A program made the translations under genes and the position numbers. From contig JABGZQ010000042.1 of assembly GCA_018674655.1 (NCBI GenBank), forward strand, positions 1 through 64,000: a DNA stretch of 64,000 nt, written 5' to 3'. Of this stretch, positions 11,737 through 18,847 are shown in pieces; the stretch's first letter is position 1, and every line of letters starts with the position of its first letter. The stretch comes from Fidelibacterota bacterium (GTDB lineage: Bacteria; Fidelibacterota; Marinisomatia; Marinisomatales; TCS55). The notes under the pieces are model-generated. The model was not told where the DNA came from, searched no databases, and saw nothing but the letters and a program-made list of their open reading frames with translations.

Positions 11737-12342
11737 TTACTTTTCTGCGAATTTAATCCCACAACCTAATGCACGGGTTTCTGCAACTGTTATCGTTTGA
11801 CCATTCCCCACTGCCTGGATTGCATCCATCAAATAGGTCTTTTTTACTTTTTTTGGTTTCCGGGCATTGTCATCAATCGCGCCTCGGTAAACCAGTTTAC
11901 CTTTTCCATCAAACAAATAAATATGCGGTGTTTTAGTGGCGCCAAAAGCGGTGGCTAATTTGGCCCCCTTGTCAACTGTGTAAAGAAAATCGTGGCCGTA
12001 TTTTTTGGAAAATTCACGCATATCATCTAGTCCTTCACCAATCTTAGCTCTATTTTTTGTATTGGGATTGATCGTAATAAAGCCAATCTTATTCTTATTG
12101 CTCGCTTCGGACAGAGAATTGTAACGATCCTGCCAGGCTATAACCCATGGACATGTATTACATGAAAAATTCACCAGTAAGCCGTTTTCCATTTTGACAT
12201 CGTTTAAGGTCACCGTCTTTCCTGAAATATCGGTCATTTTAATATCTCCCAAGGGAATCGAAGCTCCGAGTTCCAATTCACCGGCAAACGAAAATGATAG
12301 TATAAACGTTAATATTATTGTTTGTTTAAGGTACTTAATCAT
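11737..12342 (-). CDS. Secreted thioredoxin-family (redoxin/AhpC-TSA-like) protein
   Basis: 201 residues with a signal peptide (residues 8-21, FSFAGE). A thioredoxin-like fold follows with the active-site sequence FSCNTCPWV (C61-x-x-C64), the form seen in redoxin-domain proteins annotated as thiol:disulfide oxidoreductases, and the strand GFITINPNTK. The C-terminus has a conserved TPHIYLFD cis-Pro segment and a final Cys (LGCGIKF). It likely acts in the periplasm as a thiol-disulfide exchange protein. It is 71 bases downstream of the cyclodeaminase-like gene on the same strand, so it may be co-transcribed. The precise partner is unknown. Confidence 0.85.
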   Translation of the reverse strand: MIKYLKQTIILTFILSFSFAGELELGASIPLGDIKMTDISGKTVTLNDVKMENGLLVNFSCNTCPWVIAWQDRYNSLSEASNKNKIGFITINPNTKNRAKIGEGLDDMREFSKKYGHDFLYTVDKGAKLATAFGATKTPHIYLFDGKGKLVYRGAIDDNARKPKKVKKTYLMDAIQAVGNGQTITVAETRALGCGIKFAEK

Positions 12343-12413
12343 GATGAAACTCCCATTTTAACGTAGGTCATATTACGATATATTTTACGACTTCACAAAG
12401 GATCGGGAGGCAT

Positions 12414-13352
12414 TTAAAGTAAATACTTCAGAACCGCTTTTGAAATTTGTATATCCTGAACAGCCACGCCGGTTAAATCTGCAATCGTAATCTGAGAATC
12501 AGACGTTCTCCCTGTTGTTTTTCCAGATAAAACCTCTCCAAGTTCCACCACATCATCCATGGAAAAATCGTTCGATTTCAATGCTTGATAAATTTCACCC
12601 CGAACTTCACATTGGGATTTACTATCCGCGACCACCAAATCCGCCTTCATTAAAATGGATGTCACCAGTTCCTGTTTCGTTAAAGTATCGGAACCCATGG
12701 CGGTTATATGCGTCCCGGGATTAACATGGTTTATTAAGGGAGTTTCACTGGATGTACACGTTACAATCAATTGGCAGTTATTGATCACATCGTTTATGTT
12801 GGTGGTGGTGATAATCTTATAGTCGGTATCAATCATATTCGATTGATACTTTAACAAGGATGTTTCACTCCTTCCCCACACAAACACATTATTACAATCA
12901 ATTATTTTTTTGAGATAGTTCAATTGCATTTTTGCTTGAAGACCTGTACCTACAATTCCAATATTACTTACGATTTTGGGCGATAAATATTTCGCACAAA
13001 TGGCACCAGCCACTGCAGTCCTCACATCGGTGAGGTGTGCTTCATCTTTCAGGATGGCCATGGGCTCGCCGGTTTTCTGGTTAAATACCAGCATCATGCC
13101 ATTCCCGTTTGGTATTCCCCTATCTGAATTCCGTGGAAAACCAGACGCAATTTTGATTACATACACATCATCATTTTTGATATATCCATATTTGATATGT
13201 ACATCTCCAGGCGGCGATTCGAATTGCAATTCTCCCACAGGCGGTACCACCACATCTCCCCGGGTATAGGCCACAAACCCCACTTCAATCTCTTTCATAA
13301 GATCAACCTTCGGGAGAACAGATTTAATTTCAACCAAGTTGATAATTCGCAT
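12414..13352 (-). CDS. Ornithine cyclodeaminase / mu-crystallin family protein
   Basis: 312 residues, NAD(P)-binding enzyme of the OCD/mu-crystallin family. The family pattern is clear: VIKIASGFPRN with the conserved Lys, LTDVRTAVAGA, the Rossmann motif GIVGTGLQA (about residues 124-132), VTCTSSETPL, and LVVADSKSQCEVRGE. Members include ornithine cyclodeaminase, alanine dehydrogenase, pyrroline-2-carboxylate reductase, iminosuccinate reductase (BhcD) and EutC of ectoine use, and sequence alone does not decide between them. Its start codon overlaps the stop of the dehydratase gene by one base (TAATG). Coupling to a PLP dehydratase suggests a reductase or dehydrogenase acting on the imine or keto acid formed there. 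Confidence 0.88.
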   Translation of the reverse strand: MRIINLVEIKSVLPKVDLMKEIEVGFVAYTRGDVVVPPVGELQFESPPGDVHIKYGYIKNDDVYVIKIASGFPRNSDRGIPNGNGMMLVFNQKTGEPMAILKDEAHLTDVRTAVAGAICAKYLSPKIVSNIGIVGTGLQAKMQLNYLKKIIDCNNVFVWGRSETSLLKYQSNMIDTDYKIITTTNINDVINNCQLIVTCTSSETPLINHVNPGTHITAMGSDTLTKQELVTSILMKADLVVADSKSQCEVRGEIYQALKSNDFSMDDVVELGEVLSGKTTGRTSDSQITIADLTGVAVQDIQISKAVLKYLL

Positions 13353-14305
13353 TATAGTATGCTCTTTAATACTTCAGAACTGATATTACCACCGCACATG
13401 ACGATTACGACCGTCTGGCCATTGAGTTTATCTTTTTGTTTCATGAATCCAGCGATTGCAGCCCCTGCCGCTCCCTCAATCAGTTGATGATGTTTTTCCA
13501 AACCCATGCGGATACCATCCGCGATTTCATCTTCAGAAATCAACACAAAATCATCTATAATATTTTGACACAATTCAAAGGTGATCGATCCCATTTCCAC
13601 ACCACCGGCAGTGCCGTCCGAAAGAGTGTCCTCAGAAGGTAAATCGAGTTGTACACCTGCTTTTAAGGATTCATACATAACGCAGGAATTTTGGGGTGAG
13701 ACACCAACCATACTGACATTTTCATTCATGGATTTAAGATAGCCGCCCACACCGGAAATCAATCCGCCGCCACCAACAGAAATAATAACTGAATCTACGG
13801 TAGCCAGATCATTCCATATCTCTACCCCCATGGTCCCTTGGCCGCAAATAATGTCCGAATCATTATAGGGTGAAATGTAAGTGGCGCCGGTAGTATTTGA
13901 AATTTCTTGTGCACGCTCTTCCGCATTAATACAGTCATTGCCAAAATATTCTACTTCGCCACCTAAATTGAGAATATTCTCAACCTTATTTTTGTGCACA
14001 TTTTCAGGAACAACGATCTTGCCCTTAATACCAAGGATGGACATGGCCAAAGAACAGGCAGCCCCATGATTTCCTGTGGAAGCGGTTACCACACCTTTGG
14101 ATTTTTGTTCGTCGGTCAAAGCAGTCATTTTACTGATAGCGCCACGGAATTTAAATGATCCTGTTTTCTGGATATTGTCCAGTTTCAGATAAACATCACC
14201 ATCAATGAGATTACTCAAGTAGGGCGAATGTTCTAGGGGTGTATGTCGGAGATGGGATTTGGACCGTTCATGAGCACCTCCTACATCCTTGGGAAATGAG
14301 ATCAT
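13352..14305 (-). CDS. Threonine dehydratase-like PLP enzyme (fold type II)
   Basis: 317 residues. The PLP lysine is K52 in TGSFKFRGA, and the phosphate-binding glycine loop is SVGGGGLISG. There is no C-terminal ACT regulatory domain, so it is of the short catabolic type that includes threonine/serine ammonia-lyases, serine racemase, beta-hydroxyaspartate dehydratase (BhcB) and EutB. Reaction by family: beta-elimination from a hydroxy-amino acid to a 2-oxo acid or imine. It overlaps the aminotransferase stop by 4 bases (ATGA) and the cyclodeaminase-like start by one base. The BhcB/BhcD-like or EutB/EutC-like pairing is suggestive, but no aldolase (BhcC) or ectoine hydrolase gene is present here. 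Confidence 0.9.
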   Translation of the reverse strand: MISFPKDVGGAHERSKSHLRHTPLEHSPYLSNLIDGDVYLKLDNIQKTGSFKFRGAISKMTALTDEQKSKGVVTASTGNHGAACSLAMSILGIKGKIVVPENVHKNKVENILNLGGEVEYFGNDCINAEERAQEISNTTGATYISPYNDSDIICGQGTMGVEIWNDLATVDSVIISVGGGGLISGVGGYLKSMNENVSMVGVSPQNSCVMYESLKAGVQLDLPSEDTLSDGTAGGVEMGSITFELCQNIIDDFVLISEDEIADGIRMGLEKHHQLIEGAAGAAIAGFMKQKDKLNGQTVVIVMCGGNISSEVLKSIL

Positions 14306-15414
14306 AATGAATTGAAAACGGGTGTAATGCGTTCTAAAGCTGCTTCAAGATCAGTTTTCTTTGCTCCATAGCCAAAACGCAGATAATGATCCATGCCGTA
14401 CCAATCACCAGCCACCAGCATAACACTGGCTTCATTTCGAACTTTTTCTACTAGTTCAGACGAATTGATGTCCCAGTCATATCTTGCAAATGCCATTGCC
14501 CCTGCATCCGGTGGAATAAAATTGAATTTTCCATGAAATGATTCTACCCATGCCTGGAACAGAGCCAGGTTTTTGGTAAGTGCATCCCGAGTACGGTTTA
14601 ATGTTTTCATACGATTTTCCGGAAGGAGTACGTGGGCGGCAATCATATCACTCAATCGGCCAATGGCAATGGATGTATAATCATGAGTGGCCCAACATTT
14701 TTGGATATAATCCTTGTTAGCCAATGACCATCCCAGTCGCAATCCGGGCAAACCGTAGGCCTTGGATAAGCCACAGTTCACGATGGTCTTGTCATAATCT
14801 ATTTCCCAGATTGAGGTGCACTCTTCTCGATTGAGTTCCGCCCCGCGGTAAACCTCATCAGCCAAAATCCATGCACCCACACTTTGAGCAATCTCACCAA
14901 TGGCATGAACTGTCTCCTTTGGTAAAACAGAACCGGTGGGATTATTGGGATTGCAGATACATATCAGTTTTGTCTTATCAGTAACAAGGCTTCTTAATTC
15001 ATCTAAATCAGGCTGCCAATTCAAGGATTCATGAAGGGCAAATGTTTTTACATCCACACCCAATCCTCGGGAGAAACCGTAGATCTGGAGATAATTGGGC
15101 ATCATATAAACCATTTCATCACCTTTTTCTAGCAAGGACATAATAGCGACCATATTGGCTTCAGCAGAACCGTTGAAGGCTTGGACATTTTCAGGGATAG
15201 CACCCGGATAAATAGAAGCGATAGACTGCCTCAATTCTGGGGATCCTTCTGTAAATCCATATGTGAGTTCTGTATTCTCGATCTTTTCGATGAAATTGCT
15301 TGAAAATAGTGATTTTAATGTACCGGGATGAACGCCACTCTCAGATAAATTATAATCTACCTTGTTCTCCCAAATAGATTGCTGACGCTCTAACTGGAAT
15401 GGTTCAAATTTCAT
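14302..15414 (-). CDS. PLP-dependent aminotransferase, class I/II
   Basis: 370 residues of the aspartate-aminotransferase fold. Visible landmarks are the NPNNPTG turn (residues 155-161), the cofactor-binding ADEVY (Asp186), the Schiff-base lysine K218 in LSKAYGLPGLRLGW, and the substrate carboxylate Arg near YLRFGYG at the end. It resembles unassigned aminotransferases related to capreomycidine-synthase-like and MalY-like groups more than AspC. Start and stop both overlap neighbours by ATGA (TlpA-like upstream, dehydratase downstream), so it is translated as part of a coupled unit. The amino donor is unknown. Confidence 0.9.
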   Translation of the reverse strand: MKFEPFQLERQQSIWENKVDYNLSESGVHPGTLKSLFSSNFIEKIENTELTYGFTEGSPELRQSIASIYPGAIPENVQAFNGSAEANMVAIMSLLEKGDEMVYMMPNYLQIYGFSRGLGVDVKTFALHESLNWQPDLDELRSLVTDKTKLICICNPNNPTGSVLPKETVHAIGEIAQSVGAWILADEVYRGAELNREECTSIWEIDYDKTIVNCGLSKAYGLPGLRLGWSLANKDYIQKCWATHDYTSIAIGRLSDMIAAHVLLPENRMKTLNRTRDALTKNLALFQAWVESFHGKFNFIPPDAGAMAFARYDWDINSSELVEKVRNEASVMLVAGDWYGMDHYLRFGYGAKKTDLEAALERITPVFNSL

Positions 15415-15896
15415 GATTCAATTGCTTTCTTTATGGCTGATTCAAAACGGGTCTTATCCTTTTCCATTTCCCAATGATCTGTTATATTGCCATTTTTATC
15501 AAAAACAATCGTGAATGGAAGTGCCCCTGACCAATCATCATTTATGGCACGAATGAAATTATTATCGTTCCCTTCCTCTTTGATAAAGGTTACCCCTTTC
15601 ACACCTTGTTTTTCAAGAAAGGCAATGGCTCTATCTTTATAGTCCGTCCAATCGGTTGTAACAAAATAAATTTTTATTCCGTTATCTTTATATTTATTCG
15701 ACAGTTCGACAATCATTGGAAATTCTTTCAAACATGGGGCACAAGTGGTGGCCCAAAAATTAACTAAGACAGCTTCCTTTCCTTTATGGGTTGCGATCTG
15801 TTTATGCAGCGCCGCCGCATTAACTGTTTTCAGTTGGAAATCCGATTGACTGCACCCCAAAAGAGCGATAAATAATATGGTTAATATTTTTTTCAT
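15411..15896 (-). CDS. TlpA/ResA-like thioredoxin-fold lipoprotein
   Basis: 161 residues. A lipobox (IALLGC, Cys15) follows a short hydrophobic signal, so it should be membrane-anchored and face the periplasm. The thioredoxin active site is NFWATTCAPC (C52, C55), and a cis-Pro segment is seen in GALPFTIVFD. TlpA/ResA proteins reduce disulfides, for example in cytochrome c maturation. Here it precedes three cytoplasmic amino-acid enzymes and is coupled to the first by an ATGA overlap, an unusual pairing. It lies 44 bases after the M14 peptidase. Confidence 0.9.
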   Translation of the reverse strand: MKKILTILFIALLGCSQSDFQLKTVNAAALHKQIATHKGKEAVLVNFWATTCAPCLKEFPMIVELSNKYKDNGIKIYFVTTDWTDYKDRAIAFLEKQGVKGVTFIKEEGNDNNFIRAINDDWSGALPFTIVFDKNGNITDHWEMEKDKTRFESAIKKAIES

Positions 15897-18610: not shown

Positions 18611-18847
18611 TTAGACTTTTTTCCCGTCAGCTCTCATTCGATTCAACACTTTACGAATACCGATTTTATCAATCAGCCGTAAGCCCTGTGTCGATACATT
18701 GAGGGTAATCCAGCGATTTTCATCCGCCAGCCAAAATCTTTTTTTCTGAAGATTAATATCAAACCGACGACGAGACTTATTGTGAGCATGGCTCACATTG
18801 TTCCCGAACATGGGTTTTCTTCCTGTTACATCACATTGTCTACTCAT
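18611..18847 (-). CDS. rpmB: 50S ribosomal protein L28
   Basis: 78 residues with the complete L28 pattern: [21 protein letters not shown], then [16 protein letters not shown] and the C-terminal [14 protein letters not shown]. The length equals the E. coli protein. The Cys and zinc-ribbon-like pairs seen in some L28 forms are not present beyond the single Cys5. It is monocistronic as far as can be seen, with a strong terminator right after it and 145 non-coding bases before it. Confidence 0.97.

Follow-up and report, generated by a model that had tools for sequence, protein, structure and literature searches.

A 64,000-nt stretch of a Fidelibacterota bacterium (contig JABGZQ010000042.1 of assembly GCA_018674655.1, positions 1 to 64,000; here called the window) contains adjoining minus-strand genes for an aminotransferase (AT), a threonine-dehydratase-like protein (TD) and an ornithine-cyclodeaminase-family protein (OCD). 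The AT gene (14302..15414) encodes a fold-type-I pyridoxal phosphate (PLP) enzyme of aminotransferase class I/II from the PRK07324/GntC/VioD neighbourhood, the TD gene (13352..14305) a fold-type-II PLP dehydratase of the PRK06815 type, and the OCD gene (12414..13352) a PRK06823-like member of the ornithine cyclodeaminase/mu-crystallin family, which is probably an NAD(P)H-dependent imine reductase. A gene for a TlpA/ResA-like thioredoxin lipoprotein (TlpA, 15411..15896, minus strand) overlaps AT. As described in a preliminary description of this DNA, the four open reading frames (ORFs) overlap on the minus strand at 15896-15411, 15414-14302, 14305-13352 and 13352-12414, with ATGA, ATGA and TAATG at the junctions, and the family labels given there agree with the Pfam matches (Redoxin/AhpC-TSA, Aminotran_1_2, PALP and OCD_Mu_crystall). 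The fixed product ratio that was drawn from these overlaps is conjectural, as overlaps occur in 14 of the window's 47 pairs of neighbouring ORFs on the same strand, with 10 being of 1–8 nt, these three included (ORFs were started at the first possible start, and larger overlaps may reflect start errors). Since overlaps are this common in the 64-kb window, they are weak evidence for a four-gene unit; the conserved unit is the AT/TD/OCD trio, and TlpA lies outside it.

Linkage of the trio was examined within the phylum, with the 61 genomes searched for AT taken, from the genome numbering, as a subset of the 245 searched for OCD. AT was present in 26/61 relatives (own genome counted) at E 1e-50, with at least 47% identity in 23, while weak matches of 33–34% identity (L047-L049), which had neither TD nor OCD in their stretches, were excluded from the counts. 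Of the 23 AT loci, 21 had TD and 20 had OCD next to AT, and 19 had the whole trio in one contiguous block, with one of the misses (L051) being at a contig end, and hence the conserved gene neighbourhood that the preliminary description had named as a check was found for AT/TD/OCD. OCD was detected in 53/245 genomes at E 1e-60, and in the best 30 of these 53 loci AT was adjacent in all 30 (several AT genes being cut by the locus edge) and TD in 26. The presence or absence of AT and OCD agreed in 58/61 genomes (both in 21, neither in 37, AT only in 2 and OCD only in 1), a co-occurrence that exceeds chance (Fisher p 4e-13, uncorrected for relatedness). Gene order varied. Most loci of the family of the window (f1), as well as the f20 locus, have AT-TD-OCD. 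Families f8 and f13 have TD-OCD-AT, and f7 is divided between this order and OCD-AT, which G036 has too. Six genomes in which TD was missing from the side of AT were searched, and a close TD was located elsewhere in four of these (G036, G132, G126 and G709), with TD-OCD and AT standing apart on one contig in G709.

The trio was also detected outside the phylum. A wider AT scan, of which the best 80 loci were kept, yielded relatives at 34–50% identity (L054-L074), followed by more distant aminotransferases with neither TD nor OCD adjoining (L075-L133). Contiguous trios were present in the Bacteroidota Aquimarina (TD-OCD-AT) and Roseivirga (AT-TD-OCD), and AT and OCD occurred together in metagenome-assembled genomes (MAGs) of Woeseia, Acidobacteria (L061) and Zixibacteria, and in a MAG with two labels, Acidimicrobiaceae and Acidobacteriota (L066). 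Of the 20 genomes from L054-L074 that were searched, eight had a close TD (E 1.9e-90 or better), which was beside AT in two and on another contig in six (G247, G260, G254, G256, G257 and G245), paired with OCD in G247 and G245. At E 1e-90, AT was found in 3/229 genomes of a sample centred on the Woeseia genome and spanning its class, and in 4/249 of one centred on Aquimarina and spanning its family (centres counted), so that the module is patchy; further trios in these samples had the orders AT-TD-OCD (G269) and TD-OCD-AT (G569). On plasmids, Rhizobium sp. BG4 has a regulator, TD-OCD and an M20 hydrolase, and Sulfitobacter sp. DSM 110093 has AT, M20, a regulator and OCD-TD. Either the whole module or a pair of genes from it occurs in at least five phyla.

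Several of these loci have further features. In Aquimarina, an M28 peptidase gene lies upstream and overlaps TD, and a BhcB-like hydroxyaspartate dehydratase gene (L055:7340-8275, plus strand; 422 bits, cut-off 550) directly follows TD-OCD-AT. The BG4 plasmid carries a second, very divergent OCD-TD pair (L224:12212-14203, plus strand) at about 2–3 kb from the trio-like TD-OCD, and the Sulfitobacter cluster is followed by a urease operon (L226:11806-16903). A plasmid of Streptomyces sp. NBC_01216 (L169:2006-11451, plus strand) combines genes for a 2-oxoglutarate-Fe dioxygenase, a DapF-like epimerase, a molybdopterin oxidoreductase, AT, and OCD-family and TD-family proteins, and may be a cluster for the biosynthesis of an amino acid with a hydroxyl group.

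The OCD protein matched PRK06823 best of 13 NCBIfam families (367.6 bits, below the cut-off of 438), with lower scores for PRK08291 (284/408), EutC (235/471.65), the archaeal alanine dehydrogenase TIGR02371 (216/409), BhcD (163/500) and SbnB of 2,3-diaminopropionate synthesis (98/327), all below cut-off. The closest solved chains were alanine dehydrogenase 1omo, iminosuccinate reductase 6rqa and pyrroline-2-carboxylate reductase 6t3e. A predicted OCD model (pLDDT 91.3) aligned to 1omo with Z 39.6 (304 residues, rmsd 2.1, 34% identity) and to 6rqa with Z 38.9 (307 residues, rmsd 2.2), which is a tie as we treat Z values within 1 of each other, and these two kinds led the top 25 structure matches (Z 31–40), all of the OCD/mu-crystallin kind. 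In a tree of 62 rows, the OCDs of the trio and five related plasmid OCDs formed one branch (SH-aLRT 95), next to an own branch (96) of 12 EutC-type rows, six of which scored above and six below the EutC cut-off, while 12 BhcD references were placed on a third, distant branch (99). This tree and the TD tree below were made by a quick method with SH-aLRT support and drawn from the midpoint, leaving out duplicates (L172, L173, L195, L196, L222 and L164), loci repeating one already used, ten close relatives (L028-L034, L037, L038 and L050) and fragments of less than about 250 aligned residues; L224_12158, an OCD with a long branch, stayed in the tree and was excluded from residue counts. The longest branch of the OCD tree was that of the OCD from the divergent BG4 pair.

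Two positions separated the OCD clades. Position 52 was His in 32/32 trio OCDs, Asp in 12/12 EutC-type and Gly in 12/12 BhcD proteins, and position 41 was Glu in 31/32 trio OCDs, Ser in 12/12 EutC-type and Arg in 12/12 BhcD proteins. If residue 41 faces the side chain of the substrate, Glu in the place of Arg speaks against a dicarboxylate and for a basic or neutral substrate. Counted by hand, position 52 aligns with R52 of 1omo, which we take to be a substrate ligand; the archaeal alanine dehydrogenase shares its fold with OCD and differs from it in having Arg where the trio OCDs have an invariant His.

The TD protein scored above the cut-off of the NCBIfam threonine/serine dehydratase model PRK06815 (396.5 bits, cut-off 371) and far below those of EutB (250/413 for TIGR02991 and 280/413 for PRK07476) and BhcB (219/550), and its closest solved chain was the catabolic threonine dehydratase 2gn0. 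In a tree of 57 rows, the TDs of the trio and four related plasmid TDs split off together (SH-aLRT 98), set apart from the EutB-type rows (own branch, 97), the generic dehydratases and the BhcB-like row from Aquimarina. Although the tree does not join them, trio and EutB-type TDs have in common Thr77 (24/25 and 11/11, respectively) and a GG at 234–235 (25/25 and 11/11), where roughly one in two generic dehydratases has a gap.

The PRK06815 match fits a reading as ordinary catabolism, in which TD would be an L-Ser/L-Thr ammonia-lyase, OCD an alanine-dehydrogenase-like enzyme using the 2-oxo acid and ammonia thus released, and AT a general aminotransferase, with the genes clustered for peptide use. 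The same reading gains from the archaeal alanine dehydrogenase being the nearest solved OCD, from the peptidase neighbours (M14 and M1 in the window, M28 in Aquimarina), from a gene of tyrosine degradation for 4-hydroxyphenylpyruvate dioxygenase (HPPD) near one trio, and from genes that resemble amino acid transporters with scores below cut-off, next to the trio (G186) or to AT (G709). It fits less well with the invariant His at OCD position 52 in the place of R52, and with an OCD clade that adjoins EutC-type proteins. Furthermore, the source genome has a second Ser/Thr-dehydratase-like gene (G000:C36:1479-2417, labelled without an NCBIfam scan), so the housekeeping function need not lie with TD, and we regard ordinary catabolism as possible, though on balance improbable.

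The AT protein matched Aminotran_1_2 with 155 bits, in agreement with the class I/II assignment made earlier, and also Aminotran_5 with 36 bits, above its cut-off of 21.5. Its three best NCBIfam scores were below cut-off (PRK07324 318/476, GntC 256/415 and VioD 200/390.9), and the closest solved chains were 3op7 and GntC 8fft. K218, D186, N158, Y189, R226 and R346 were invariant in eight aligned sequences, and the PLP-binding residue set is kept in a profile alignment with GntC, in which columns were counted by hand. With the roles of the GntC active-site residues taken from passages of PMC10367076, E9, S25, K219 and R346 of GntC have counterparts in AT (Glu9 and Ser26, the latter matching GntC S25, are kept), whereas N52, T84 and H250 are replaced by Tyr, Ala and Ile, and S26 aligns with Gly.

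GntC and VioD, which are PLP cyclases acting on hydroxylated arginine, are the second and third best NCBIfam families for AT, and AT could thus be a lyase, cyclase or oxidase of this kind that acts on a hydroxylated amino acid, with OCD intercepting the imine made by AT and TD forming a side branch. A title cited in PMC11876095 gives a precedent, as it describes a reductase that intercepts the imino acids of a partner oxidase. AT and OCD occur without an adjacent TD in Mesorhizobium and Pararhizobium (in the latter with a regulator gene between them), and in Sulfitobacter pontiacus AT is preceded by an OCD-family gene that was unmatched by the trio OCD profile at 1e-20. The four replaced GntC residues and the GntC and VioD scores below cut-off argue against this role for AT, and we judge it unlikely.

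The preliminary description compared the trio with the beta-hydroxyaspartate cycle and with ectoine use, and the proteins do resemble both sets while falling short of their family cut-offs. In the beta-hydroxyaspartate cycle, BhcB, BhcD and BhcA are a dehydratase, an imine reductase and an aminotransferase, with hand-over of an imine from BhcB to BhcD, and BhcA is a class V aminotransferase. The trio has the same three reaction types, and a BhcB-like gene (422/550 bits) lies just downstream of the Aquimarina trio. The scores of TD for BhcB (219/550) and of OCD for BhcD (163/500) are nevertheless far too low, OCD is distant from the 12 BhcD references and differs from them at positions 41 and 52, and the partner in the trio is of class I/II rather than class V (this concerns the AT of the trio, and no search for BhcA was made elsewhere in the genome). 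The aldolase domain of BhcC (PF14031) had no match in the source genome, which is 90.8% complete, whereas 2/14 control genomes did match. A true cycle with BhcA-D is thus largely refuted, and we consider it highly improbable.

Similarly, EutB and EutC are an adjacent fold-type-II dehydratase and OCD-family reductase, with a TD-family gene adjoining the OCD gene in 12/12 EutC-type loci. The EutC-type clade is the nearest known one to the trio OCDs, and Thr77 and the GG are common to both kinds of TD. For hydroxyectoine use, passages of PMC5924519 propose that EutB eliminates water and that EutC then performs an NADH-dependent reduction, a proposal described there as biochemically untested. Differences from this system are the separate, supported clades of both proteins, scores below cut-off (TD 250/413 and 280/413, OCD 235/472), a partner that is a class I/II aminotransferase of the GntC/VioD neighbourhood, and His rather than Asp at OCD position 52 (32/32 versus 12/12). 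The ectoine hydrolase EutD gave no match in the source genome at E 0.001, while 14/14 control genomes did match, none above cut-off. The phylogeny that had been suggested as a check also separated OCD and TD from the EutC- and EutB-type rows, with OCD far from BhcD, and we see hardly any chance that the trio serves in hydroxyectoine use. An unassigned route of amino acid conversion, as suggested earlier, is the best reading of the locus.

We propose that the three enzymes AT, TD and OCD act together as a module on a beta-hydroxy-alpha-amino acid, with its nitrogen being kept, and put the chances of this at about even. What the comparison itself establishes are the protein families, their linkage, the separateness of the clades, the conservation of the PLP residues in AT and the predicted OCD fold. 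The reactions, their order, the hand-over of an imine and the class of substrate are modelled on BhcB–BhcD–BhcA and on the proposed EutB–EutC pair. TD would use PLP to eliminate water from the beta-hydroxy-alpha-amino acid, giving a 2-enamine/2-imino acid. OCD would then use NAD(P)H to turn the imino acid into the L-amino acid before hydrolysis can occur, and nitrogen would thus be retained. AT would then transfer the amino group of this product to a 2-oxo acid, with conversion of the L-amino acid to its own 2-oxo acid.

Of 19 loci of family f7, seven have a threonine aldolase gene in the vicinity of the trio or of its TD, in at least three arrangements, including one (L247) where it is near a TD standing apart from OCD-AT. 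The aldolase of L245 scored 480 bits as a GntG-family protein (cut-off 230) and 340 bits as a low-specificity threonine aldolase (cut-off 312). Such an aldolase could supply or remove beta-hydroxy amino acids in f7, which would complete a set similar to BhcC-B-D-A. In its widest form, the proposal would be a third route for beta-hydroxy amino acids with non-orthologous parts, running from the aldolase (glycine plus an aldehyde, in some lineages) through TD and OCD to AT, with a non-dicarboxylic and perhaps basic substrate and a spread over at least five phyla; this extended version is doubtful.

A number of observations weigh against the three-enzyme module. The strongest doubt comes from TD, as its score above the cut-off of a threonine/serine dehydratase model makes plain deamination of Ser or Thr possible, and this is the main rival. 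In G133 and G728, which have OCD-AT, a search found no close TD, and G016 and G023 have AT-TD with no OCD at E 1e-60, so that OCD is dispensable in some genomes or was missed in these two, which are 86–87% complete. Outside the phylum, neither TD nor OCD was beside AT in 15 of the 21 AT relatives (L054-L074), some of which are at contig ends, and 12 of the 20 genomes searched had more distant TDs only. The plasmids of Pararhizobium (AT-regulator-OCD) and Mesorhizobium (OCD-AT) have no TD beside these genes, and on pSymA of S. meliloti a close OCD (53% identical to that of the window) is accompanied by a thrC-like PLP enzyme instead of TD. Finally, no threonine aldolase was present in the nine labelled loci of other families, which cover stretches of 7–20 kb and include some short contigs.

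The lipoprotein TlpA was taken in the preliminary description as the odd first member of a cytoplasmic pathway, a role that we reject. It has the lipobox LLGC and the motif CAPC (both read by eye) and a weak match to the ResA subfamily (59 bits, cut-off 170). Downstream of OCD is a gene for an AhpC/TSA-type redoxin (RDX2, 11737..12342, minus strand; 39 bits for Redoxin and 42 bits for AhpC-TSA), which by eye also seems to have a signal peptide. TlpA and RDX2 flank the trio in the window and in 15 more f1 loci (L027-L039, L041 and L042), of which L041-L042 have AT-TD only, and they are direct neighbours, with no trio between them, in 7/46 loci (L044, L243, L264 and L265 of f8, with a four-base overlap; L248 and L249 of f7; and L266 of f1). 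The best interpretation of TlpA is therefore that it is the upstream member of a thiol-redox gene pair, here separated by the trio, and it gives no evidence for a periplasmic step. Two extra genes are located between OCD and RDX2 in L034 and L037-L039; in L037 they are UmuD-UmuC genes (11898-13603, plus strand), with genes of equal size in the other three. This insertion is lineage-specific and has no bearing on the trio.

The upstream M14 peptidase had been suggested to feed the pathway, which was not borne out by the comparison either. A relative of this peptidase gene adjoins TlpA in 13/23 AT loci, all of the family of the window, with no M14 relative matched in the other labelled loci, and in L034 and L037-L039 the other neighbour of TlpA is a different gene. 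On a Paraburkholderia plasmid, a gene annotated as M14 metallopeptidase and carrying an AstE/AspA domain lies before a lone TD; it encodes an enzyme of another kind. Between two peptidase genes of the window lies a 78-amino acid ORF (18611-18847, minus strand) that is 99% identical in three relatives and gave no RNA family match; it presumably encodes ribosomal protein bL28.

Other neighbours differ between loci. YheO-like PAS/HTH regulators, which we take to be DauR, are located beside or near TD, OCD or AT in L054, L165, L166, L171, L224 and L226; they were dismissed as a universal partner, as the candidate of similar size in the phylum of the window (L045) is an outer-membrane barrel. The OCD on pSymA of S. 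meliloti is beside such a regulator and an amino-acid ABC transporter (L165:8995-11463, plus strand). N-acyl hydrolases are encoded near trio genes (M20 in L224 and L226, AstE/AspA in L171 and L225), and a lysine/arginine/ornithine-type binding protein and a YfcC-like transporter are also among the neighbours, both below cut-offs. No single neighbour is constant, and as a group they hint at an amino acid that is basic or N-acylated. The HPPD gene mentioned above is about 4.5 kb from the trio of G028 (L040:424-8045; 457 bits, cut-off 277), in surroundings that by eye resemble a tyrosine-degradation cluster.

The trio is real and conserved, while the kinds of enzyme in it are already known; no description of the combination was found in the titles and abstract beginnings of the open-licence papers searched. 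If the proposed module is correct, a dehydratase, an imine reductase and an aminotransferase would make up a metabolic block that can be reused, with the trio as a third case beside the beta-hydroxyaspartate cycle and the proposed hydroxyectoine route. This would give a testable function to three clades of proteins that now have the generic names threonine/serine dehydratase, ornithine cyclodeaminase family protein and aminotransferase, and would show a way in which hydroxylated amino acids could be used by some bacteria with no loss of nitrogen.

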